NCBI GenBank assembly: GCA_025751475.1
Contig: JAOWLD010000001.1
Span: 186,001 to 250,000, forward strand
DNA from: Rhodobacteraceae bacterium XHP0102
GTDB lineage: Bacteria; Pseudomonadota; Alphaproteobacteria; Rhodobacterales; Rhodobacteraceae
Direction: 5' to 3'
Length of the DNA stretch: 64,000 bases
How positions within the stretch are numbered: position 1 is the stretch's first letter; the number at the start of each line of letters is the position of its first letter. The translations under genes and the position numbers were made by a program. Under the pieces are notes generated by a model. That model made no database searches and was not told the origin of the DNA. It saw only the letters and a program-made list of their open reading frames with translations. This document shows, one piece after another, positions 6,296 to 36,492 of this stretch.

Positions 6296-9136
6296 ATGAC
6301 AAAATGGATGCGTGAGACCTATGACCCGACCGATTTTGGCAATCGCCGCCATATCGGGCCTTCTCCTGCAGAAATGGCAGAGATGTTGAAGGTGATTGGG
6401 GCGCCAGATTTGGATGCGCTGATCAATGAAACATTGCCGAAGGATATCCGTCAGACCAAACCGCTTGATTGGGCAGCGATGTCCGAGGCGGAATTGCTGA
6501 CGCATATGCGCGAAATTGCAGCCAAGAATAAGGTCATGGTGTCGATGATCGGGCAGGGGTATTATAACACCCACACGCCGCCTGCGATCCAACGCAATGT
6601 CTTGGAAAACCCTGCTTGGTATACGGCCTATACCCCCTATCAGCCCGAGATCAGCCAAGGCCGCCTTGAGGCCTTGCTCAATTTCCAGACGATGGTTGCC
6701 GATTTAACAGGGCTTGAGATTGCCAATGCCTCGCTGCTCGATGAGGCCACCGCTTGTGCTGAGGCCATGGTCATGGCCGAGCGGGTTGCGAAATCAAAGG
6801 CGCGCGGGTTCTTTATCGATCAAAACTGCCACCCGCAAAATATCGCTGTGATGCAGCGCCGCGCCGAACCTTTGGGGATTGAGGTGATTGTGGGTGATCC
6901 CAAGGATTTGGACGCAGGCACGGTCTTTGGTGCAATCTTCCAATATCCTGGCACGTTTGGTGATTTGAATGACCCATCTGCGCAGGTTGCGGCCTTACAC
7001 GCGGCAAATGCGGTGGCGATCATGTGCACAGATTTGCTCGCGCTGACCGTGTTGCGGGAGCCAGGCTCTTTTGGTGCGGATATTGCGGTCGGCTCCGCAC
7101 AGCGCTTTGGCGTGCCTTTGGGTTACGGCGGCCCGCACGCGGCATTTCTGTCGTGCCGCGAGGCCTATAAACGCGCCATCCCAGGTCGGCTTGTTGGCGT
7201 CTCGGTGGATGCGCAGGGACGCCGCGCCTATCGCCTGTCCTTACAGACGCGCGAACAGCATATTCGCCGTGAGAAAGCCACATCGAATGTTTGCACGGCA
7301 CAAGCACTGTTGGCCGTTATGGCTTCGCTTTATGCGGTGTTCCATGGCCCGCGCGGATTGCGCGCGATTGCGCAGCGGGTGCATCTGCACGCGGTGCGCC
7401 TTGCCGCAAGCCTAGAGGCGGGTGGGTTTGCGCCGCTGACGCATAGTTATTTTGACACAATCACAGTCAAGGTCGGGGCCAAACAGTCGCGCATTATGGC
7501 GGCGGCTGTGGCGCGGGGGATCAACCTGCGTGACGTAGGCCAAGATCGGATTGGTATTTCCGTGGATGAGGTGACGACCGAGGCGCATTTGGCCGCGGTA
7601 TGCGAGGCGTTTGGCACAGCGCTTTTGGAGGCGGTTGATGCACCAGCGATCCCTGATGCGCTTTTGCGGGAAACGGATTATCTGACGCATCCGATTTTCC
7701 ACATGAACCGCGCGGAATCTGAGATGATGCGCTATATGCGCCGCCTGTCGGATCGCGATTTGGCGCTCGATCGTGCCATGATCCCGCTTGGCTCCTGCAC
7801 GATGAAGTTGAACGCAGCGGTCGAGATGATGCCAATCACATGGCCTGAATTTGGTGGGCTTCACCCGTTTGCCCCGCAAGATCAGGCCGAGGGCTATGCG
7901 CAGATGCTCGCGGCGCTTTCGGATTATCTTTGCGAGATCACGGGCTATGACGCGATGTCGATGCAGCCCAATTCAGGCGCGCAAGGGGAATATGCGGGCC
8001 TTCTGACCATCGCCGCCTATCATGAGGCGCGCGGGGATCACCACCGCAAGATCTGTCTGATCCCTGTGTCTGCGCATGGCACCAACCCTGCCTCTGCACA
8101 GATGGCGGGGATGGAGGTGGTTGTGGTGAAATCTGCGGAAAACGGCGATGTCGATCTCGTGGATTTCCGCGCCAAGGCCGATGCCGCAGGGGACCGTTTG
8201 GCCGCTTGCATGATCACCTATCCGTCCACCCATGGCGTGTTTGAAGGCACGGTGCGCGAGATTTGTGAGATCACCCATGCCCACGGGGGGCAGGTCTATC
8301 TGGATGGCGCGAACCTCAACGCCATGGTGGGCCTGTCCAAACCGGGTGAGATCGGGGCAGATGTCAGCCACCTGAACCTGCACAAAACCTTCTGCATCCC
8401 ACATGGGGGGGGTGGGCCAGGCATGGGGCCGATTGGCGTGAAGGCGCATCTGGCGCCCTATCTGCCAGGACATCCAGAATTGGACAGCGATCAAGGGCCA
8501 GTGTCGGGCGCGCCTTATGGCTCGGCTTCGATTCTGCCGATTTCTTATGCCTATATCAAATTGATGGGCGGGGCAGGGCTAACGCAAGCCACCAAAATCG
8601 CGATCCTCAACGCCAATTACATCGCCAAGCGCCTGTCTGAGGCCTATCCGATCCTGTTCACGGGGCAGGGCGGGCGTATCGCGCATGAATGCATTCTTGA
8701 TTGCCGCCCCTTTGCCGAGGCGGGTGTGACGGTCGATGATATCGCCAAGCGTCTGATGGATAATGGCTTTCACGCGCCCACGATGAGTTGGCCCGTGGCA
8801 GGCACGCTGATGGTTGAACCAACTGAGAGCGAAACCAAGGCAGAGATTGACCGTTTCTGCGATGCAATGCTGGCCATTCGGGCAGAGATTGCCGATGTCG
8901 AGGCGGGCAAAATCGCCGCCGAAGACAGCCCCTTGCGCCATGCGCCCCATACGGTCGAAGATTTGGTTGGCCCATGGGATCGCGCCTATAGCCGCGAGGT
9001 GGGCTGCTTCCCTGCGGGGGCGTTCCGCGTGGATAAATATTGGCCGCCCGTGAACCGCGTGGACAATGTCTATGGCGACAGGCACCTGATCTGCACCTGC
9101 CCGCCTGTCACAGATTATCTGGATGCGGCGGAATAG
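6296..9136 (+). CDS. gcvP: Glycine dehydrogenase (decarboxylating), P protein
   Basis: PLP-dependent P protein of the glycine cleavage system, about 946 residues, in the fused (N plus C half) form. It decarboxylates glycine and loads the aminomethyl group on GcvH. The PLP lysine is K697 in [28 protein letters not shown] at the N-terminus and [20 protein letters not shown] are characteristic. ATG 6296 lies eight bases after GAGCAGG; an in-frame GTG at 6287 would add three residues. An 8-G run at 8405-8412 encodes the conserved glycines and is not unusual. Confidence 0.96.
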
Positions 9137-26510: not shown

Positions 26511-26916
26511 CTTCGGCCTTTTTGACGCGGCGCGGGCTGCGCAGGGTTGGCCTATATCCTATCGCGCATCCTGCCAAGGGCAAGCAACCGCGCCCCGTGA
26601 TGGGCGCTGTGCGCGATCGTTTCTCATGTCTTAAGCAAGCCATAACAATTTTCTGCAAATTTATACAACTTTAAGGCGAAATTTTGTTTGCATCCAAAAG
26701 AAAATTTTTTTACCTTGATTGTGCAAGCAGCAAATTGGTTGTCGGTCGGGATCGCACCACCCACCCCTCGCTCCCTAGATCTCGGCCGGCAATCCAATTT
26801 CAACGGCGATGCATATACCGCATTCCTCATCTACATCTTGCAAACCCCCTGTATTTTGCCGATATGTATGTGGAATTTGAGCTATCCTTCGGGGTGCGAT
26901 CGAGACGGAGACAGGC
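26511..26916. other. 406-bp divergent intergenic region
   Basis: Gap between the divergent uvrB and NDUFS4-like genes. No credible gene is visible. The middle (about 26640-26720) is strongly AT-rich, with runs such as AAAATTTTTTT, and probably carries the promoters of both genes. No clear SOS box was recognised, so LexA control of uvrB is not claimed. Confidence 0.4.
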
Positions 26917-27228
26917 ATGGTTGCGCGCATTTACAAACCCGCCAAAACGGCAATGTCATCTGGTGTTGCGAAAACCAAGGAATGGGTCTTGGAATTTGCG
27001 CCCGCCTCCGCGCGTGAAATCGATCCTTTGATGGGTTGGACCTCAAGCGGGGATACCAAGGCGCAGGTGCGGCTTTATTTTGAGAGCCAAGAGGCGGCAG
27101 AGGATTATGCCCGCACACATGGCATCGAGGCCGTGGTGCTGCGCCCCAAGACGCGCAAACCCAATTTGCGCGCAGGGGGCTACGGCGAAAATTTCGCCAC
27201 CAACCGCCGCACCGTTTGGACACATTGA
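26917..27228 (+). CDS. NDUFS4-like complex I accessory protein (ETC_C1 family)
   Basis: A 103-residue protein of the NDUFS4/AQDQ (18 kDa subunit) family of respiratory complex I, found in Alphaproteobacteria and mitochondria. The sequence [25 protein letters not shown], then [20 protein letters not shown] and the C-terminal [15 protein letters not shown], are characteristic. It is likely bound to the matrix-side (cytoplasmic) arm of complex I. ATG 26917 follows GGAGACAGG. It lies 62 bases upstream of the tRNA-Arg gene. Confidence 0.9.
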
Positions 27229-27290
27229 GCCGCTGACCCCCGTCTGCACCGTTTACGCGCGCCACAAGAACGGGTAATCAGCCCCCATGC

Positions 27291-27367
27291 GGTCCCTTAG
27301 CTCAACTGGATAGAGCAGCTGACTTCTAATCAGCAGGTTCGGGGTTCGAGTCCTCGAGGGATCGCCA
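27291..27367 (+). tRNA. tRNA-Arg (UCU), intact left copy
   Basis: A 77-base tRNA with encoded CCA. The acceptor stem GGTCCCT pairs with AGGGATC, the D arm is GCTCAACTGGATAGAGC, the anticodon stem GCTGA/TCAGC encloses loop CTTCTAA with anticodon TCT, and the T arm is CGGGG-TTCGAGT-CCTCG. All stems are intact. A 76-base exact copy starts 9,121 bases downstream, which marks this gene as the attachment site of an integrated element. Confidence 0.97.
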
Positions 27368-27371
27368 GAAA
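27292..27371 (+). repeat. Left attachment repeat (attL), 80 bp
   Basis: Identical over 80 bases to 36413-36492. It begins at base 2 of the tRNA and runs four bases past the CCA (GAAA). The great length of the identity means that the element carries nearly a whole tRNA gene and not only its 3' end. Confidence 0.93.
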
Positions 27372-27711
27372 AATAAGAAAAAAATTCACTTTTATATCTT
27401 CGCGCGGAATATCAGCGAGACATTCAGCGAGACGAAATGGCGTGGAATCGCGTAATTTGACGTAGACGGCAAACCACCGTCCTACGCGCGCGTGGCTGCG
27501 TGTTTGCTCCCGCCCGCGCGCGCGTTGCTCCCGTTCCGGTGTGCTATTTCTCTCTGCAATGCGCGGCACATGCCTGACTTGACCGACCCGCTGTTGCCCG
27601 TTGCCCTGATAACCCTGCGGGGATGCTTGAGTATGTCGGCCTGATAGGATAAGCGACCAATGCTATGTATGCGTTTGATTGCAAGTCAGAATTTCTCAAT
27701 AAGATACAAAA
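27368..27711. other. 344-bp left end of the element without a gene
   Basis: After the A-rich AAAAATAAGAAAAAAATTC stretch comes a copy of the end repeat at 27411-27433. The remainder up to the barrel gene contains no convincing coding frame; a 79-codon frame on the other strand overlaps the tRNA and is dismissed. It probably holds the promoter of the barrel gene. Confidence 0.5.
27411..27465 (+). repeat. Left copy of the internal end repeat
   Basis: The first 23 bases, ATCAGCGAGACATTCAGCGAGAC, contain the unit CAGCGAGAC twice and match 36301-36323 at 22 of 23 positions. Similarity continues more weakly, with no gaps, to CGTAG at 27465 (40 of 55 overall). It lies 44 bases inside the left tRNA copy. 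Paired short repeats at both ends of an element are what integrase arm-binding sites look like. Confidence 0.75.
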
Positions 27712-28746
27712 ATGAATGACATAAAGTTGTGTGTAATGGTGGCGCTTTTGCTGCCTGTGTTGCCGACGTCTGCGCTTGCAGAAAATCGCCTGGGTTTCTT
27801 CGGGTATGAGCGTGATAAGCAGGACGCATTACTGACGCTGTCGAGCCAGTGGAATGCAATCGATACCTATAACACCACGATTTCGAATTTCCGCCTTGCG
27901 GACCAGCAAAGCTCAGAAGAGCAAGCGGCCTATGGCTTTGGATACTCTAGTGCGAGCGATACGGGTCCACAGCTCACTTTTAACCTGTCAAAACTTTTTG
28001 CGGAGGCATCCACCACGGCGACCAGTAGCTTTACCATCGCTTACGAGACGCCCGATGAAAAATGGTTGTCAGGCATAAGACTGTCTTCGACCAATCCCTC
28101 AAATGATCAAACTGTGACATCATCTACCGTTTTGTTGAGCCGCCTTTTCGAGTGGTCGGCACACGAGCTGCGTATTTCAGGCGAGGCGACGTATTTACAT
28201 GACCACAATCATCTCAGTGATGAGGTTGGCTCCTCGCATGTAAGTGTGTCTTACGAATATGATGATACGCAACATGACCTAAAAATTATCGCATCGCGCT
28301 TAGACAACCAGAGCTTCATCGATACAACAACTGGCTCTAGTGATTGGAGCCACAGTTATCAGGTATCGACACAGTATCTAACACGCATCAATCAGTGGCG
28401 ACTGGGCTTCACAAGAATTGATACCAATCAGACAGATCCTCGTGCAGGTGATAGCTCAAGCACCCATTTGAACGCCATCTATGATCAAGACCGTTGGCAG
28501 GTCATGGCAACTGTCGGGGAAGACAAAATTGAAGGCGTAGAAACCAGTCTATATACTTCCAACGCCTGGCGGCAGGATCGTTATGCACTCTCCTACGTCT
28601 ATCAGCTCTCGCAAAGCGCGTCATTGATCGCAAACGCGACGCATCTGGCGGGAAACCAAAGCAGACATGTTCCAGCCTTGAATTTGCCAAACCACGTGAG
28701 TGTTGATCAGACATCACTCTCTGTGCAGCTGATGTATAAGTTTTGA
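27712..28746 (+). CDS. Outer-membrane beta-barrel protein, function unknown
   Basis: A 344-residue protein with a signal peptide (residues about 1-22, ending SALA). The rest is made of alternating polar/hydrophobic strands (for example HLNAIYDQDRWQVMATVGED, YALSYVYQLSQSASLIANATH) and ends in aromatic QLMYKF. This fits a barrel of perhaps 14-16 strands inserted by BAM. No named family was recognised. The ribosome site before ATG 27712 is weak (AAGATACAAAA). It is cargo of the element, convergent with the TetR-type gene 16 bases away. Confidence 0.65.
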   Translation: MNDIKLCVMVALLLPVLPTSALAENRLGFFGYERDKQDALLTLSSQWNAIDTYNTTISNFRLADQQSSEEQAAYGFGYSSASDTGPQLTFNLSKLFAEASTTATSSFTIAYETPDEKWLSGIRLSSTNPSNDQTVTSSTVLLSRLFEWSAHELRISGEATYLHDHNHLSDEVGSSHVSVSYEYDDTQHDLKIIASRLDNQSFIDTTTGSSDWSHSYQVSTQYLTRINQWRLGFTRIDTNQTDPRAGDSSSTHLNAIYDQDRWQVMATVGEDKIEGVETSLYTSNAWRQDRYALSYVYQLSQSASLIANATHLAGNQSRHVPALNLPNHVSVDQTSLSVQLMYKF

Positions 28747-28762
28747 GCGGCAGCGGAGCCAC

Positions 28763-29443
28763 TCATTCAGTGAGTGTCAGCAAGTATCCGTGTAAAAGGC
28801 GTCGGAGCTTTTTATAATATAATGGCGTCCCCCAATCGGGATTATCTTCTAGCCGAGCCGTTAGAATGTCCAAGTCCAAGCTTTGGATGACGCCACTCAG
28901 CTCCGCACGATCAATTGACAGATCTTTGGTCTGTGCATTTTTTGCGAGGAAATCGGCAATAATAGACGTCAACCCATCGAGATGCGGATGAAACTCTTGA
29001 TGTGTTAAGTTATGCTCTTTCCACAGCATTTGCAGGATTTCGTGGGGTATTGTGCAATTTGCGCCATAAAACACATCTGCGGTGAACGTGCAGAACTCGT
29101 TGAGTGAGCGAGGCTGATCAGCAAGGTGTTTGGCATAGACCTGTGTGGAGAGCTGGCAGGTTAACTGGTAGCCTTTTAGCAAGAAGCTTGTATGGCCCTC
29201 AAACAGGCGGAAGAAGGTTGAACGTGAGTAGCCTGCCTTCTCAATCAGGCGCATGACGTTTAGGCCTTCAAGGGATTTGGATCTGGCGCCGAGGCGAAGG
29301 GCTGCGACAAGAAATGCTATGAACTTGTCATCAGGGACGTATTGATGTGCGGCCTCTTCGATTTCTGGCACCCATGCAGAAATCAGCGCATCTGGATCTG
29401 CGGAGTGCTTGTCAAAGTCGAAATCGGTGATGGCGAGCGGCAC
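28763..29443 (-). CDS. TetR/AcrR-like transcriptional regulator
   Basis: A 226-residue protein. The helix-turn-helix is recognisable near residues 55-90: LNVMRLIEKAGYSRSTFFRLFEGHTSFLLKGY matches the TetR pattern (IAxxAGxSxxTFYxxFxxKxxLL). An unusual N-terminal extension of about 35 residues comes before it, and the C-terminal ligand domain is divergent. GTG 29443 is the likely start, with GCGAGG upstream. It may control the neighbouring outer-membrane genes; its operator was not identified. Confidence 0.68.
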   Translation of the reverse strand: MPLAITDFDFDKHSADPDALISAWVPEIEEAAHQYVPDDKFIAFLVAALRLGARSKSLEGLNVMRLIEKAGYSRSTFFRLFEGHTSFLLKGYQLTCQLSTQVYAKHLADQPRSLNEFCTFTADVFYGANCTIPHEILQMLWKEHNLTHQEFHPHLDGLTSIIADFLAKNAQTKDLSIDRAELSGVIQSLDLDILTARLEDNPDWGTPLYYKKLRRLLHGYLLTLTE

Positions 29444-29784
29444 GTAAAAAGCCTCGCAAATGGGGGAGCCAATACATCCGCAAATGGGGTGCGGTCGTCA
29501 CGTTCAACGGCCAGAGCAACGATTAAAACCCAAGTATCCCAGCCTTGGATGCATGGGTCAATAGGGTTGCAGTTCCATGGTTTTACCAAGAAAAAACATA
29601 TACTTACGCGAAATATGCAAAACACAGTTCCAAATCTGGGCCGAGCTATTGATTAAGTGAATAAACATAAGGCAAAGCAACGACGTGTAGCATTAGAGGG
29701 CTTCAGTTTTGCTGATCGCAACGGCACATACCAATTGTAATCTAGTCAGGGGATTTACTTTGGCTGCTTTGTCGTATGGCGGTA
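29444..29784. other. 341-bp cargo region without a clear gene
   Basis: Lies between the regulator and the first reverse-transcriptase remnant. Frames are short and disrupted, and the base composition is AT-rich. It probably carries the regulator's promoter and decayed sequence upstream of the retroelement fragments. Nothing specific was recognised. Confidence 0.4.
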
Positions 29785-29867
29785 GAACGTGTCGCGCTCA
29801 AGCATTATTCAGTAATTTGGGGTTGCCGAAAGCGGTTCGCCACTTGGGCTTCCGGAAGGCTGAAAAC
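29785..29867 (+). pseudogene. Remnant 1: 3' tail of a reverse transcriptase
   Basis: In the frame with codons at 29827, 29830 and so on, the sequence reads RKRFATWASGRLKTCGK. This matches the tail KKRFAAWASGGLKRCE of the second remnant 432 bases downstream. The frame is closed by TAG at 29782, so only about 27 codons of the end survive. It is followed at once by an ATG (29868) opening a hydrophobic leader, as in the second copy. Confidence 0.55.
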
Positions 29868-29875
29868 ATGCGGAA
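29827..29875 (+). repeat. Imperfect direct repeat, copy 1 (RT tail plus next start codon)
   Basis: From AAAGCGGTTCGCC to GGCTGAAAACATGCGG. It resembles 30263-30309 (AAAGCGGTTCGCC to GGCTGAAAAGATGCGA) with about 40 of 47 positions matching. In both copies the repeat covers the end of a reverse-transcriptase frame, a ribosome site and the ATG of a gene with a hydrophobic leader. Confidence 0.75.
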
Positions 29876-29964
29876 AACGCTTACGATAGCTTTTGCGCCT
29901 TTTACGCTGGGTGGCGATCCGGCTTACTCGCTTGCTGCAAATGTCGGGCTGAAGAGCGGGGCGG

Positions 29965-30347
29965 GGCTTGGACTACACCTCGACAAGACTTCCATCGGGC
30001 CAATCGCCCGTGGCTTCGATTTTCTGGGCTATCGGCATGATCGCACGGGCTTGCGCCTGTCCGAGGTTACGCTGAAACGCCATCAGGAAAAACTGACCCG
30101 GCTTTATGAGCGATACCAGCGCCGTCTGCGGGCCCACCGCGGGCAGCTGGTAGGGCAGTCAACCATACCGCGTCCGGATCGCGATCCAGCGCGGGCTTAT
30201 CTCAATCCACAGCCTCAGATCACATCGCAAAACGACATAGTTCAGCGACTTGAGGCTTACAAAAAGCGGTTCGCCGCTTGGGCCTCAGGAGGGCTGAAAA
30301 GATGCGAAACTGGTTCACAATCCCCGCGGTCGTTTGTCTTGGCTTAG
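29965..30347 (+). pseudogene. Remnant 2: C-terminal (thumb) part of a reverse transcriptase
   Basis: About 125 codons, from LHLDKTSIGPIARGFDFLGYR, match the end of group II intron-like reverse transcriptases: a DKT-x-I-x-GFDFLGY segment just after the palm, a basic helix (RLYERYQRRLRAHRG) and the final YKKRFAAWASGGLKR. The catalytic YADD palm and everything upstream are missing. The frame runs back to an ATG at 29868, but there it encodes an unrelated leader, so a fusion or deletion has occurred. It ends after overlapping the start of the autotransporter by 46 bases in another frame. Confidence 0.68.
30263..30309 (+). repeat. Imperfect direct repeat, copy 2
   Basis: Second copy of the repeat at 29827-29875. 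It includes the strong ribosome site GGAGGGC (30288-30294) and the autotransporter ATG (30302). The spacing between copies is about 435 bases, so the reverse-transcriptase fragment is bracketed by the two. Confidence 0.75.
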
Positions 30348-31714
30348 GAATCGGTTCCGGGGCCAACGCCCAAACCGAGCTGACCGCGCTGAATGACGGG
30401 TACTCGCTTGGAGGTTGTAAGGTCGACGTGGTGGACGACCGAGCCGGGGGGGGGGGATTGGTGGTGCTATTGAGAGCCGTTGGGCGAGACCCGGTATTAA
30501 CTGGTGCCTATGAAGCGGGGACGCTGCCGTGGGCGGTCCCGGCGCACGCTGTCGAGGGCGTGTGTGGGGTTGCTGAGGGCAGCGTAACTTTGACGTCGGC
30601 GTCAGGTACGTTCACGACCACCGCACCATTTGGATTAACGCACGTTGATAACGGCGCCGAAACGTTCATTGGGTGGGGTTATGCCCCTGAGGGTGTGGGC
30701 GCCGGGCCAGAGGGTGCCGTCATAACCGCAGCGACACAACAGCTCACCTCTCAAATCAGCGGCAACCAGCGTCTGGTCCGTGAAAGCCGCGACCGTTTCA
30801 TCGCAAGCCGCCGCCAAATGGACGGTGTTGGTGCAGGCATCGCCAGCCGCAACAACGTTGCCTTTGACGTGGATCCTACATTTGCACTCAATGGCACAAC
30901 AGTCAGCACACGCGGTAATTTCTTCGGTCAAACCGGCGACTATGCCGGCACGCAGCGCCGGCTTGTTTTCGGCGACTTTGATGTGCAGCATGATAGCGAC
31001 ACAGGCAGCAGCACGGCTACACTCACCGGCCGTATCGCTTGGGAGCAGATGGTGTCTAACGACACGATGCTTGGTTACTTCATCGGTGGTGAGCTGGCGC
31101 GGTCAGACATTGAGGGTGCATATAACGGCGACCAGGACCGCATTGGCGTAACCATTGGCGGATACGCTGTGCATCAGCTGCAAGACGATGTGTTCTTGGA
31201 TGGCTTTCTCACTTTGGGTGCTGGCCGTAACGACATAGAAATCAAAAACGATGCGCAGACACTTGAAAGCGATTACAACACACGCACAGCAACTATCGGT
31301 GCCGCCCTGTCCGGTGTGTATGAGTATGAGCAATACGAGTTCCGTCCTGAACTCGCTGTAAGCTACGGCAAGACCTGGATTGGCAACGTTAGCTTTGCAA
31401 GCGTAGATAACACCATCAGCGTGGATGCAGGCAATGTCTCCATTGCCAATCTCACCCTGCGGCCAGAAGTGGTCTGGGCGTTAGACGCAGACACAGTAGC
31501 GGACAGCAACAGCCAGTTCAGCTTTGCGCCGCGTGCCATTTGCGAACGCCGAAGCGCCACTACTAGAACGGACGACTGCGGTGGTGGTGCTGAGCTTGGA
31601 CTGAGTAGTGCCTCCAGCGATGGACTGAGCAGTGCTGAAATCCGCTTAGCCCGCGATCGCGTTGGCAGCAGCTATCGATCGAGCTTTGCAGTTAATGTTC
31701 AACACCGTTTCTGA
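30302..31714 (+). CDS. Short autotransporter-type outer-membrane protein with poly-G tract
   Basis: A 470-residue protein with signal peptide (MRNWFTIPAVVCLGLGIGSGANA). Residues 24-145 are a small passenger-like region. A helical linker QLTSQISGNQRLVRESRDRF near 150 precedes a C-terminal autotransporter barrel of about 270 residues, ending in VQHRF. Families with this linker usually carry long passengers, so this one looks cut down. GGAGGGC lies eight bases before ATG 30302. Codons 49-52 are an uninterrupted 11-G run, so slippage would switch the frame off. Confidence 0.78.
   Translation: MRNWFTIPAVVCLGLGIGSGANAQTELTALNDGYSLGGCKVDVVDDRAGGGGLVVLLRAVGRDPVLTGAYEAGTLPWAVPAHAVEGVCGVAEGSVTLTSASGTFTTTAPFGLTHVDNGAETFIGWGYAPEGVGAGPEGAVITAATQQLTSQISGNQRLVRESRDRFIASRRQMDGVGAGIASRNNVAFDVDPTFALNGTTVSTRGNFFGQTGDYAGTQRRLVFGDFDVQHDSDTGSSTATLTGRIAWEQMVSNDTMLGYFIGGELARSDIEGAYNGDQDRIGVTIGGYAVHQLQDDVFLDGFLTLGAGRNDIEIKNDAQTLESDYNTRTATIGAALSGVYEYEQYEFRPELAVSYGKTWIGNVSFASVDNTISVDAGNVSIANLTLRPEVVWALDADTVADSNSQFSFAPRAICERRSATTRTDDCGGGAELGLSSASSDGLSSAEIRLARDRVGSSYRSSFAVNVQHRF
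30446..30456 (+). repeat. 11-G homopolymer inside the autotransporter reading frame
   Basis: Eleven consecutive G bases encode Gly49-Gly52 (GGG GGG GGG GGA) shortly after the signal peptide. It is the longest homopolymer noticed in the window. Such tracts in surface-protein genes change length by slipped-strand mispairing and give on/off phase variation. With 11 G the frame is on. Confidence 0.85.
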
Positions 31715-31738
31715 TTTTGAAGCATAGAAACAATGTGA

Positions 31739-31762
31739 GGGCGGCCTGCGGGTCGCCCTTTT
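31739..31762 (+). terminator. Probable rho-independent terminator after the autotransporter
   Basis: Stem GGGCG (31739-31743) with CGCCC (31754-31758), followed by TTTT, 25 bases after the stop codon. The loop GCCTGCGGGT can extend the stem by alternative pairing. Fits the end of the autotransporter transcript. Confidence 0.7.
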
Positions 31763-32010
31763 CATTGGCAGGAAGGCAGGGCTGTTTTTGAGAGAAGCCT
31801 TTCAATGATCGGCCGGGGTGCAGCCTCCGGCTCGCCAATAGCCAGTCGCAAGCAGCTTTTGCGCCGCGCTTGATCGGTGAAGGAGTTCTGACGGTGGGCT
31901 GGAACGGGATGACTTTGGGTTCCACTGTTTGCGTCGCAGTTCCACGGTCCTAGGGATATAGATGCGGTTTTGATAATAGGCCGCAGTATGGGGTGGATGC
32001 ATTCTGCAGG
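31763..32010. other. Gap between autotransporter terminator and iteron-like site
   Basis: About 250 bases with no convincing gene; together with the terminator and the stem-loop they fill the 353-base gap between the autotransporter and the primase gene, which end toward each other. Frames here are short and rich in proline and cysteine, as expected of non-coding sequence. Confidence 0.4.
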
Positions 32011-32067
32011 CTGTCAACCCCATCAACCCTGTCCACTCCAGTTGATAGGGTTGATAGAGTTGATAAC
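32011..32067. repeat. Iteron-like tandem 9-mers with inverted arm
   Basis: Three adjacent 9-base units, GTTGATAGG, GTTGATAGA and GTTGATAAC (32041-32067), stand directly beside the stop codon of the primase gene. The opposite arm CTGTCAACCCCATCAAC (32011-32027) is nearly complementary to the first 17 bases (15 of 17), with a 13-base loop. This could be a replication origin read by the element's own primase/helicase, or a protein-binding hairpin in the mRNA tail. Confidence 0.7.
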
Positions 32068-33741
32068 CTAATTGCTAGGCGCCAGTGTCCCATCATCCAA
32101 TCGCTGAACCAAACCACATTCAATTAGCCGCCCGACCGCCTTGGACACTTGCGATTTATCACGGCTGATTTCCTCTGCGATGAAGTGTTGCGTGCAGCGA
32201 GGCCGCTCACGTATGACGTTTAATACGGCGCGCTGCGTATCGCCGAGTGCGGCCTCGACTGATACACCTGCCGCTTGATAGCCCTGCGCGGTCCATTTGA
32301 ACGTCAACTCCTGCTCCTCAATATCTTTTCCCGTGAGCAGCATGTTGATGTCCTGGGTGCCTTTCTGGCGCTGCAGAACCATAATCGTTTCTACGGTGGC
32401 CGAAATGCCCGTTGAACCCAAAATCATTTCAATCGGTGATGCCTCCATACCTGTGGACTTCCGATTGTGATGCACCACGACAATCGCAATCCCAAGTTTG
32501 TGGGCAAGTTGGCGAAGGTTGCCAAATTCTGTGCTGGTGACTTCGTAGTTCTTCTCACGCTCAGATGGATTGCGTATCGACGCAACAGTGTCGATTATGA
32601 CGCAGCGGAGATTGGGGTTTTCGGCGACGAAGTTTGTGATGAGTTCCAGCGCAGCTACGCCCTGCGGCAATGCTTTCTCACTGGATAACATTGGCAGCAC
32701 CTTGAACTCTGGTGATGCTGCAAATGGCCGCAAACGCCGCAGTCGAGACTGAAACCTTTGCTCGTTATCCTCACTGGCAATGTAGAGCGTCCCGTAGCCT
32801 GCCTCGGCAACCTGAAGTCCAAACTCCATCGCAATCCATGATTTTCCAACCTTCGGCGCGCCTGCAATCAACGCGAGTGTAGGAGTGGGCAAATAGGGCT
32901 TTAACAACCATTCGGTCGGTGGGAAGTCTGCCTTGAGCAGTTCATTTCCGCTCCAGATTTTGTAACCGCTCGTGATTGATACCGTGACAGGGTCTACGAC
33001 ATTCTCGAGGGCGGCACGAACTGCTGCATCACCTTCGCTGTCCCATAAGTCCCACCAGTCTTTCACAACAGGGGGGGTGACATGGGGCAAGCCTGCAGCT
33101 TTTACAGCTTTGCGTCCTGCCTCATCATTGTCAGCTGCAACAATGACATTGTAGCCCTGTGCCTTGAGCTGCTTAGCTGAAGCAGGAAGGGCATTTGCAT
33201 CTAGTGCAAAAAACACCTGCTGACCTGTCACGAGATACAACACAACGGCATCCGCCCAACCCTCGGTGACGTAAAGGACATCTGACTTCTCGCCAATAAA
33301 CGTGCCAGCTCCTTCTTTTTTCATGCCTGGGCTGAAGCGCTTTGAGCCATCAGAGTTGATGAATTGTTTGCCGCGAAATTCATCCGTTTCGATGTCACGA
33401 ATTTCGACAACAACCGTGTTGCCGTCACAGACAGCGCCTGTGCCTGCAAGCTCAATGCGTTTCTGAATGTGATACGGCACATCGCACTTTGGTGGCCGTG
33501 GTACATCTGGCACCTGTGGCTCGAACTTTGGCAGCAATCCATCTTGCTCCATATGGCGTGTTCGGTCGGATAAGGCACAATCTTTGCGACAGTGATGTTT
33601 CAGCTTGCCATTATGGTCGGCAATCCAGAATCGGTCGTCGCCTCCACAATTGGGACACGGACCATGCCATTCATGGCCAACTCTTTTCAGCCCATATTTT
33701 TCAATGATTGGCTGCGAATACTGATCAAATGGAATATCCAT
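32068..33741 (-). CDS. P4-like primase/helicase replication protein
   Basis: A 557-residue multidomain protein. A zinc-binding primase domain has C29-P-N-C32-GGDDRFWI and C51/C55. A TOPRIM domain follows, with E160 (VTEG) and D204-x-D206-E-A-G (AADNDEAGR). Next is a RepA/AAA_25-type helicase with Walker A G294-APKVGKS-301 and Walker B CVIIDTVA, and finally a winged-helix segment (HFIAEEISRDKSQVSKAVGRLIECGLV). GAGG lies eight bases before ATG 33741. This set is typical of phage- and satellite-encoded replication initiators and implies autonomous replication after excision. Confidence 0.88.
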   Translation of the reverse strand: MDIPFDQYSQPIIEKYGLKRVGHEWHGPCPNCGGDDRFWIADHNGKLKHHCRKDCALSDRTRHMEQDGLLPKFEPQVPDVPRPPKCDVPYHIQKRIELAGTGAVCDGNTVVVEIRDIETDEFRGKQFINSDGSKRFSPGMKKEGAGTFIGEKSDVLYVTEGWADAVVLYLVTGQQVFFALDANALPASAKQLKAQGYNVIVAADNDEAGRKAVKAAGLPHVTPPVVKDWWDLWDSEGDAAVRAALENVVDPVTVSITSGYKIWSGNELLKADFPPTEWLLKPYLPTPTLALIAGAPKVGKSWIAMEFGLQVAEAGYGTLYIASEDNEQRFQSRLRRLRPFAASPEFKVLPMLSSEKALPQGVAALELITNFVAENPNLRCVIIDTVASIRNPSEREKNYEVTSTEFGNLRQLAHKLGIAIVVVHHNRKSTGMEASPIEMILGSTGISATVETIMVLQRQKGTQDINMLLTGKDIEEQELTFKWTAQGYQAAGVSVEAALGDTQRAVLNVIRERPRCTQHFIAEEISRDKSQVSKAVGRLIECGLVQRLDDGTLAPSN

Positions 33742-33848
33742 TGCTTAACCTCAATATTTGATTGGCGGCCAAGCACGTGGTATTCTGAATGTGGTTAAAG
33801 CGTTCAAACTAACCCACCCAGAAGCCGCGTGCCTCAGGCGCGCGGTTT

Positions 33849-34136
33849 TCATTTTGGCGAGTAGGCTTTTTCTGGAGCCTGAGGCCGAGACGGCAGCACA
33901 TCCACCACATCCGTCGCATCACGCTCTGAGAGGCCCTCGAAGCGGCGGAGTGCCTTGATTAGGCCTGGTTTGGTAGCGGCGAAGGAAACGGACTTCCAGC
34001 GCTTTGCACCGTCTGTTGTCTGCACAAGCCACTGAATGCCTTCGCGGCAGACAGCGATGCGCAGGTTGTGCAGCGGCCGCGCTACAACATTCATGTAGAG
34101 GTCGCTGGTTTCGGATGCGCGAGCATTGATGATCAT
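33849..34136 (-). CDS. Small phage-type hypothetical protein
   Basis: A 95-residue protein containing LRIAVCREGIQWLVQTTDGAKRWKSVSFAATKPGLIKALRRF. This Cys-Arg-x-G-x-x-Trp pattern is familiar from small proteins of alphaproteobacterial prophages and satellites; its function is unknown to me. ATG 34136 is favoured because AAGGAG lies eight bases upstream; a GTG start nine bases earlier is possible. It lies between the HTH gene and the primase gene in the same direction. Confidence 0.6.
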   Translation of the reverse strand: MIINARASETSDLYMNVVARPLHNLRIAVCREGIQWLVQTTDGAKRWKSVSFAATKPGLIKALRRFEGLSERDATDVVDVLPSRPQAPEKAYSPK

Positions 34137-34156
34137 TGGCCACACTCCTTTACGGA

Positions 34157-34228
34157 GCAGGATGGCGACCGACCCGTGCAGGGTCCTGCCTCAAAGCCAC
34201 CCCCGTGTAATTTGATGAACGGGGGGGT
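34157..34228 (-). other. Two consecutive hairpins in the replication-module leader
   Basis: The gap between the HTH gene and the small hypothetical gene contains GACCCGTGCAGGGTC (34171-34185, perfect 5-bp stem), nested in GCAGGA/TCCTGC (34157-34162/34184-34189), and a second hairpin ACCCCCG/CGGGGG-type (34199-34205 with 34220-34228). No T-run follows on the transcribed strand. They may be RNA structures or operators controlling the replication genes. Confidence 0.45.
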
Positions 34229-34248
34229 ATCGGTGTGCTGGCTCATTA

Positions 34249-34485
34249 TCACACCTCCGCTTGCTTATAAGCGGGGGCGGCTTCAAACTTTTGCTCCGCG
34301 TGTTGAAGCAGTTCTTCCACCTCGAATATGGCCGCTTTGTTTGGACGGCGAACAACCAGAGGCCATTTTTCTAGCGTTCGCGGGCTGATTGGAAAAAAGA
34401 GATGGGTGACTATCGCTGCAGCTGTCACTTTGTCAGCGTATTTCGGCAGAGGTTGATCTGGATGCCATTTAGGGTTGCGTAGCAT
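34249..34485 (-). CDS. AlpA-like helix-turn-helix protein (excisionase/regulator)
   Basis: A 78-residue protein with the form KVTAAAIVTHLFFPISPRTLEKWPLVVRRPNKAAIFEVEELL, a winged MerR/AlpA-type DNA-binding domain. In related elements such proteins act as excisionase (directionality factor) or activate excision and replication genes. It lies between the integrase side and the replication genes, as expected for that role. TTGGAG precedes ATG 34485. Confidence 0.72.
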   Translation of the reverse strand: MLRNPKWHPDQPLPKYADKVTAAAIVTHLFFPISPRTLEKWPLVVRRPNKAAIFEVEELLQHAEQKFEAAPAYKQAEV

Positions 34486-34571
34486 TAGGTAGCTCCAAGT
34501 TGTTGGTTGCCACCCTTAGATACCTTGTCGAATCATCCCACCTCGCAATCTGCCTAAAATTCAAGTTATCC

Positions 34572-35069
34572 TTATTTTTCACGCTCAAAGCGTCGATACG
34601 CTTGCCAAATGTTGTCTACTTGCTTCGGTGAGAGTGCGAATTTTTTCGCAACTTTTGCAATGATCTGGCTGCGAGTGCCTTTGGGAGGAGTGTTCTTCAG
34701 GCTAACAAGTCGCGAAGTTGTAACTTTGCCCCTGCATTTTTTGTTAATTGCCTTGATTTCCTCATTGATATCAGCCTGATGCTGCTCATAGCCCTCCTCG
34801 AGTTCGTCATCGCCTTTGCTTTGAAGCCATTGGCGTCGTTGCGGGACTGATATCGAGTTCACCTTGCTCCATGTGGCCTCCAATTCCGTGGCCCCGATTA
34901 GCTTGTCTCGTCTCATGCGTAGGGCGGCGTCTTGGGCCTGCCTGTGTAGGGTTTCACAATCTTGGCCAACTTCCATTACGAACCAAAAATCCCATTTACG
35001 AGGCCGCCCCGCTCCGCGTCGTTTGCCACCGTGGCTGTTCAACGGGCGTTGCTGTTGTTTGGAACCCAT
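34572..35069 (-). CDS. Basic DNA-binding-like hypothetical protein
   Basis: About 165 residues. It opens with a lysine/arginine-rich stretch HGGKRRGAGRPRKWDF, which looks like an AT-hook, and ends with a likely helix-turn-helix (RSQIIAKVAKKFALSPKQVDNIWQAYRRF). Between them is a charged helical region. The start (ATG 35069, or 35075) lies inside the 3' end of the integrase gene, so the two are coupled. GGKRRGAGRP openings also occur in phage small terminase proteins, but no other packaging gene is present, so a regulatory role is as likely. Confidence 0.6.
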   Translation of the reverse strand: MGSKQQQRPLNSHGGKRRGAGRPRKWDFWFVMEVGQDCETLHRQAQDAALRMRRDKLIGATELEATWSKVNSISVPQRRQWLQSKGDDELEEGYEQHQADINEEIKAINKKCRGKVTTSRLVSLKNTPPKGTRSQIIAKVAKKFALSPKQVDNIWQAYRRFEREK

Positions 35070-36298
35070 AACCAACCCTCCAGCAGCGTAGCCCAGGTCC
35101 GCATCGCATCGCGTCTTTTATCGAGGAGCTTTGCATGCTGATAATGCTTGATGACGCCTCCGCGTGTCTCGCTTTGTTTGTGGTTCAATAATCCATCTAT
35201 TACGTCCAGTGACACCTCTGAATGTTCTGCCATTAATGTCGAAAATGTTCGCCTCAAGTCATGCAGTGTAAATTCCTCTACCCCCGAAGCCTTTCGCACC
35301 TTTTTATTAAAATGGCTCCAAGATTGCATTCTTGCGTCGGGAATTCTTGATAGTTGGAATACTCTAAATTCCTGCGGCGCCTTGGAATGACCAAGAATGT
35401 CAAATGCTAGGGGTGTTACTGGCATCACGAAATGAGCAGAATTTTTTGTGTCTGTGTGCGATAACCGAATTTCACTTTGCGAATGTATTACTTGTGACCA
35501 GGTTAGGGTAGCGCCTTCATCTGCCCGCAGTGGCGTCGTTATCATGAACCTAAGGTATCGCAGGTATTCAGGCTTTAAACTTTCACATTGCCACAGCCGC
35601 TTGAGTTGTTCGGGCGTGTAGTAGGACATCCGTGGCGGCGGTGGTTTAGGGCGTCGCTTTTTCGCAATTAAAGAAGTGGGGTTTGTGTGGATGACCTCCT
35701 CATCGATCAGATATTCCAGAAAACGCGAAAGCGCGCCGAAGCGGTGACGATTGGTTGCTGGTGCAAGGTGGTGTCGCTCCAAAAGCGACCTGATGTGTTT
35801 AGTATCAATACAATCAGGACGGAGGTGGCATGCTCCCATTTCCTCCAAGCTGAGGCGGACATGCCGAGTTTCATCTCGCTCGTGTTTGCTTCCTCCACCA
35901 TTCAGCTCGCTGTGAGTGTAAATTTCAAGCCATTCGCTGCAGGTTTTTTGCCGTGCTTCTGCAGCGCGCTTCAACGCAGTTTGTTCGCGTTGCTCCAGCG
36001 CGGGGTCGAGGCCATCACGGACCTGAGCTTTAATTAGCTCAGCTTTGGCGCGGGCTTCACTCGGCGTCATTAGAATCGGATCGCCTAGCTTCATGGCTCT
36101 TTGGGGATGGCGCTTGCCACCATCTAAATAGCCTCGTTTGCGATATGTATACACCCAGCTGGAACTAGAATTGTTAATTACCAGTTTAAGGCCAGGGCAG
36201 CCTTCATCCCTGAGCGTTAGCCTTTGATTTATGGCTCTTTGCTGTTTGATGAATTTGTCGATTTTTGATCGATCGATATAGCAAGATATGGTCGGCAT
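35039..36298 (-). CDS. int: Tyrosine recombinase integrase
   Basis: A 419-residue site-specific recombinase of the P4-integrase type: an N-terminal arm-binding region, a core-binding domain (about residues 115-205) and a catalytic domain. The catalytic residues can be placed: R258 (TTPLRADE), K285 (DTKNSAHF), H346 and R349 (HDLRR), H373 (LLNHK) and nucleophile Y386 (KHYQHAK). All are present, so the enzyme should be active. It ends nearest the right tRNA copy with its start codon two bases from a copy of the end repeat, which suggests self-regulation. Confidence 0.94.
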   Translation of the reverse strand: MPTISCYIDRSKIDKFIKQQRAINQRLTLRDEGCPGLKLVINNSSSSWVYTYRKRGYLDGGKRHPQRAMKLGDPILMTPSEARAKAELIKAQVRDGLDPALEQREQTALKRAAEARQKTCSEWLEIYTHSELNGGGSKHERDETRHVRLSLEEMGACHLRPDCIDTKHIRSLLERHHLAPATNRHRFGALSRFLEYLIDEEVIHTNPTSLIAKKRRPKPPPPRMSYYTPEQLKRLWQCESLKPEYLRYLRFMITTPLRADEGATLTWSQVIHSQSEIRLSHTDTKNSAHFVMPVTPLAFDILGHSKAPQEFRVFQLSRIPDARMQSWSHFNKKVRKASGVEEFTLHDLRRTFSTLMAEHSEVSLDVIDGLLNHKQSETRGGVIKHYQHAKLLDKRRDAMRTWATLLEGWLWVPNNSNAR

Positions 36299-36300
36299 TT

Positions 36301-36355
36301 ATCAGCGAGACTTTCAGCGAGACAAATTGGGGTAAGTTTGCGAAGCATAGCGTAG
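36301..36355 (+). repeat. Right copy of the internal end repeat
   Basis: ATCAGCGAGACTTTCAGCGAGAC at 36301-36323, 22 of 23 identical with 27411-27433 and in the same direction. It sits directly before the integrase start codon (36296-36298), so it covers the integrase ribosome site or promoter. It is 89 bases from the right tRNA copy. Confidence 0.75.
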
Positions 36356-36411
36356 TTCAATACTTCTTGAAAATGTAATTTATTCAAAATAATTGGATTA
36401 AAATGCTTACT

Positions 36412-36488
36412 TGTCCCTTAGCTCAACTGGATAGAGCAGCTGACTTCTAATCAGCAGGTTCGGGGTTCGAGTCCTCGAGGGATCGCCA
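36412..36488 (+). tRNA. tRNA-Arg (UCU), right copy with altered first base
   Basis: Identical to 27291-27367 from base 2 to the CCA. Base 1 is T instead of G, so the first acceptor pair becomes T-C. Otherwise it folds the same, with anticodon TCT. It lies at the right end of the element and may be a silent att remnant or a second tRNA gene; the upstream sequence is AT-rich and element-derived. Confidence 0.8.
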
Positions 36489-36492
36489 GAAA
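36413..36492 (+). repeat. Right attachment repeat (attR), 80 bp
   Basis: Exact partner of 27292-27371, at an offset of 9,121 bases. Chromosomal sequence resumes at 36493 and leads into the iron-type alcohol dehydrogenase gene 80 bases later. Confidence 0.93.

Follow-up and report, generated by a model that had tools for sequence, protein, structure and literature searches.

A run of 11 consecutive G residues near the start of an autotransporter gene in a Rhodobacteraceae genome is probably (at a rough probability of 0.6) an accidental frameshift hot spot, in a passenger domain that diverges fast, rather than a maintained contingency locus. The gene is carried by an integrative mobile element and lies within a 64,000-nucleotide stretch of DNA (the window), to which all positions refer unless a locus or contig is named. 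On this reading, the tract would be a chance product of a G-rich loop that codes for glycine, in the passenger of a horizontally acquired autotransporter. A one-base replication slip would truncate the product at codon 56–70, before the barrel, leaving the cell without this surface protein, and a second slip would restore both frame and protein. We infer that such slips are appreciably frequent and that the tract is not maintained by selection. The sequence-only reading had called the site a probable phase-variation switch; given the lack of a genome-wide excess of long runs, the absence of the tract from every homologue found and the presence of shorter runs in housekeeping-type genes, that is too strong, and phase variation here is plausible but unproven.

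The gene begins with an ATG preceded by GGAGGGCTGAAAAG, has a good ribosome-binding site and encodes a protein with a signal peptide at residues ~1–23 (ending near ANA-QT at residue 23, by inspection), a short passenger (~24–135), a helical linker, a barrel and a C-terminal phenylalanine. A Pfam search identified the autotransporter beta-domain (PF03797, E=5.8e-9), and an AlphaFold2 (AF2) model built from a 19-sequence alignment (mean pLDDT 73, pTM 0.64) contains a helix at 136–174 and a 12-strand barrel at 185–468, the barrel mostly with high confidence and the passenger with low confidence. Among the best solved Foldseek matches to the predicted barrel are those of BrkA, NalP, Hbp and EspP. 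As modelled, the protein is a type Va autotransporter, with a C-terminal 12-strand barrel and with signal peptide, passenger and helical linker in one chain, which bears out its earlier identification as a surface protein of this kind.

Table 1. Coordinates of the tract, the gene that contains it and the surrounding mobile element
Feature	Position in window	Strand	Basis
tRNA-Arg(tct), left element boundary	27291..27367	+	tRNA gene and direct repeat
Cargo stretch with autotransporter and G11	27536..33010		replaced by other cargo in sister species G002
Chimeric remnant: autotransporter-like start fused to reverse transcriptase 3′ end	29709..30347	+	phrog_1423 E=1.1e-7; weak TIGR04416 match
Classical (type Va) autotransporter gene, 470 aa	30302..31714	+	Pfam, AF2, Foldseek
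G11 tract	30446..30456	+	sequence; AF2 places a predicted passenger hairpin turn there
Primase/helicase-like replication protein, C-terminal winged helix	32068..33741	-	Pfam (Toprim, AAA_25), PHROGs
Tyrosine integrase	35039..36298	-	PF00589 E=3.9e-13, PF13356; 97.6% identical in sister species G002
tRNA-Arg(tct) copy, right element boundary	36412..36488	+	tRNA gene and direct repeat

The uninterrupted G11 (30436–30466 reads CGACCGAGCC-GGGGGGGGGGG-ATTGGTGGTG) fills codons 49–52 (GGG GGG GGG GGA, encoding Gly49–Gly52), some 25 codons past the signal peptide. In the AF2 model, residues 47–51 are placed between the strands E39–46 and E52–59, with confidence below 50 at this point. When tract lengths were simulated, G11 gave the full 470 amino acids, and stops were met at codon 69 with G9, 56 with G10, 70 with G12 and 57 with G13; the frame of the signal peptide and Cys39 upstream matches the barrel frame only at 11 (mod 3) Gs. 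At its present length the gene is ON. The coordinates and frame first assigned to the tract are correct, as is, in silico, the claim that gain or loss of one G would truncate the protein. The gene thus has two features of a contingency locus, a long in-frame tract and truncation by a change of one base in either direction, and it belongs with the known autotransporters that bear an in-frame poly-G tract.

Long G/C runs show no genome-wide excess over chance. In the whole 2.68-Mb genome there are two of at least 11 bases, this one and a 13-mer, against 0.4–2.5 expected under Markov models of order 1–6, a value that was derived from a 300-kb sample of the same genome and varies with model order. 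Scaled from the genome estimate, the chance of a run of at least 11 in any one 64-kb window is roughly 1–6%, and when codons were resampled for this protein a G run of at least 11 appeared in 2.5% of draws. The odds for a single chosen gene or window are low, but with the number expected per genome the G11 is unremarkable genome-wide. Six runs of exactly 9 are found elsewhere in the genome, several within housekeeping-type genes; those bearing a G9 read as shikimate kinase, glutamate racemase and MurJ/MviN, judged from the translations rather than from a family search. The 13-mer, the longest G/C run found in the genome, is a C13 followed by an A7 (L020:4600-4612; G000:C3:453599-453611) and is intergenic, flanked by a minus-strand gene and an RNase E-like gene.

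The tract had also been described as uncommon in this group, which does not hold: a G/C run of at least 11 is present in 158 of 249 family genomes, sampled at one genome per genus. Inspection of 30 family loci with such runs placed several at contig ends and most outside recognised genes. In a Pfam check that covered ten candidate frames, just two runs touched recognised frames, those of an FTR1 permease, where the run is upstream of the start, and of an RTX calcium-binding repeat protein. Runs within recognisable surface-protein genes are rarer in the family than runs as such and, since most inspected runs are outside recognised genes, the position of the G11 in such a gene is what speaks most strongly for the sequence-only reading. 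The RTX case, a 12-base G/C run inside the gene (L070:1500-1511, genome G269), is a second in-gene candidate.

Homologous barrels are encoded in 21 of 397 family genomes and, in a GTDB-based scan, also in Salibaculum, Octadecabacter and Paradonghicola, named relatives from which membership of the Rhodobacteraceae can likewise be inferred for the genome. No G run longer than 7 was found in any of 32 homologous genes or gene parts, none of them a close orthologue and their passengers divergent; the longest was 7, and in the paralogue from the same genome (L019:3248-4744) it was 4. The barrel of this paralogue is 71% identical, with differences at the three codon positions of 0.20/0.16/0.50 that indicate purifying selection on the barrel, and it has five residues, around residue 366, that are missing from the G11 gene's barrel. 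The paralogue alignment runs through the tract point and the two passengers are nearly saturated with differences. Searches of the GTDB-based scan, IMG/VR, plasmids, phages and the drawn genomes (196 + 397, partly overlapping) did not find the same gene in another strain and gave homologues only, none with the tract. This absence is weak evidence, passenger sequences having diverged so quickly that even the paralogue allows only a poor comparison of the site. In the wider region of the paralogue (L019:489-4744; G000:C1) genes for a tyrosine integrase and an AraC-type regulator lie nearby, and there is no long G run. In Salibaculum griseiflavum two related autotransporter genes with different passengers adjoin one another (L039:3289-7050 and 8022-9032).

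C. jejuni is not known to have MutS1-type mismatch repair. MutS1 is present in the genome analysed here and should lower the slip rate relative to that species, in which one base is lost from G11 tracts at a rate of 0.0028 and added at 0.0002 (PMC8224891 Table 2). Judging by other bacteria (PMC8224891, PMC1891110), the tract is likely to be slippage-prone, and it may well vary in length, since 74% of long tracts in Bordetella are polymorphic between species (PMC1891110). It is a further step to an evolved contingency locus, in which slipped-strand mispairing would reversibly switch the autotransporter ON and OFF at a high rate and selection would keep the tract, with phage, grazers and biofilm or host contact proposed as the selective agents. 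We regard this, the main rival to a chance origin, as rather unlikely. The C. jejuni rates speak for it, as does the place of the G11, in frame near the 5′ end of a surface-protein gene, where one base more or less truncates the product; by analogy, the length, the pre-barrel position and the type of gene, which match those of the proven or candidate phase-variable surface genes CapD, NalP, MspA, tcfA and bapC (PMC7168839, PMC3723659, PMC1891110), would likewise count against a chance origin. The presence of MutS1, the homologues and paralogue without the tract, and a tract known from one genome point the other way, and our literature search found no paper on phase-variable autotransporters in Rhodobacteraceae. 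An excess over chance is one of the defining features of contingency loci, the decisive one being length polymorphism; because long G runs show no excess here, we do not class the gene as one.

CapD of Campylobacter is also an autotransporter with a conserved barrel, a divergent passenger and a poly-G within the reading frame, but its tract occupies the same position throughout the genus, whose genomes have many tracts of this kind (PMC7168839). In NalP and MspA of Neisseria meningitidis a homopolymer inside the autotransporter gene similarly sets ON or OFF through the frame; there, however, it is a poly-C whose length varies from 6 to 15 in hundreds of isolates (PMC3723659). The B. pertussis genes tcfA and bapC resemble the present case in that they encode surface proteins, contain G/C tracts and belong to a G+C-rich genome, but their tracts vary within single cultures, and in Bordetella long tracts (G/C runs above 8) exceed chance (PMC1891110).

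Upstream, the chimeric remnant overlaps the start of the autotransporter gene, and the junction between reverse transcriptase end and autotransporter start is present twice (29820–29875 and 30254–30309, 82% identical), which suggests a collapsed tandem array. The reverse transcriptase part has weak matches to enterobacterial plasmid reverse transcriptases and in two distant genomes, and there is one weak match near L041. A diversity-generating retroelement was considered and rejected, the reverse transcriptase being a C-terminal remnant only and a repeat search having given no template/variable repeat pair.

This remnant and its duplicated junction could be taken to mean that the cargo gene is itself decaying, the tract being one of several lesions tolerated in a protein no longer needed; the five paralogue residues absent from the barrel fit such a view, and Campylobacter autotransporters are known to decay without phase variation (PMC7168839). 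We think it improbable, as the 470-codon frame is intact, the ribosome-binding site, signal peptide and C-terminal phenylalanine are all in place and the barrel is modelled with confidence. It is at least as improbable that the run was miscounted in sequencing or assembly and that its true length is not 11. Homopolymers are known to cause sequencing artefacts (PMC8808543), but signal peptide and barrel share a frame only at the lengths given above, the barrel is under purifying selection, and the 9-contig genome has a completeness of 99.98%. A chance origin in the passenger thus remains our preferred reading. If the tract does not switch, the case is a useful caution: a surface gene with a long G run is weak evidence for phase variation when about one or two such runs are expected in a genome from its composition. 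If it does, simple-repeat phase variation would extend to a family of environmental bacteria and be tied to a cargo-swapping mobile element. That a poly-G contingency switch rides on such an element, switch and antigen travelling together, in a family for which we found none described, is on present evidence unlikely.

The location on a mobile element, already proposed from the sequence alone, is well founded. The integrative element, 9.1 kb long, is bounded by duplicated tRNA-Arg(tct) genes, with an exact 80-nt direct repeat (27292–27371 and 36413–36492) at the two copies, and encodes the tyrosine integrase at one end, the primase/helicase-like protein, two small proteins and the cargo; with the same core present elsewhere, it is a tRNA-integrated mobile element. 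In the sister species G002 this core occupies the same tRNA with a different cargo of surface or secreted proteins. DNA homology to the G002 element (L125) is confined to 26756–27535 and 33011–36488, with sharp breaks at 27535 and 33011, and identity is 95% between 33011 and the right tRNA copy and 82% at the left end. Among the G002 cargo are an inverse autotransporter beta-domain protein (PF11924, E=9.4e-31), an FG-GAP repeat protein and a protein whose polysaccharide-lyase match is weak and below cutoff. Since the stretch 27536–33010 is replaced there, the G11 sits in a swappable surface-protein module. In genome G003 the site has the left flank plus one tRNA copy, and a search with the element's 167-aa protein as marker gave one further element (G221), interrupted by other genes. 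With tyrosine-integrase elements in tRNA genes this one shares the tRNA duplication, the terminal integrase and the primase/helicase; what sets it apart is surface-protein cargo swapped between sister species. Just inside the element ends there is a 34-nt direct repeat (88% identical; 27410–27443 and 36300–36333), found also at L125:11756-11789, whose copies are possibly integrase arm sites, and beside the 3′ end of the primase-like gene lies an imperfect inverted repeat (32008–32069) with 30-nt arms that are 80% identical and consist of GTTGATA-like units.
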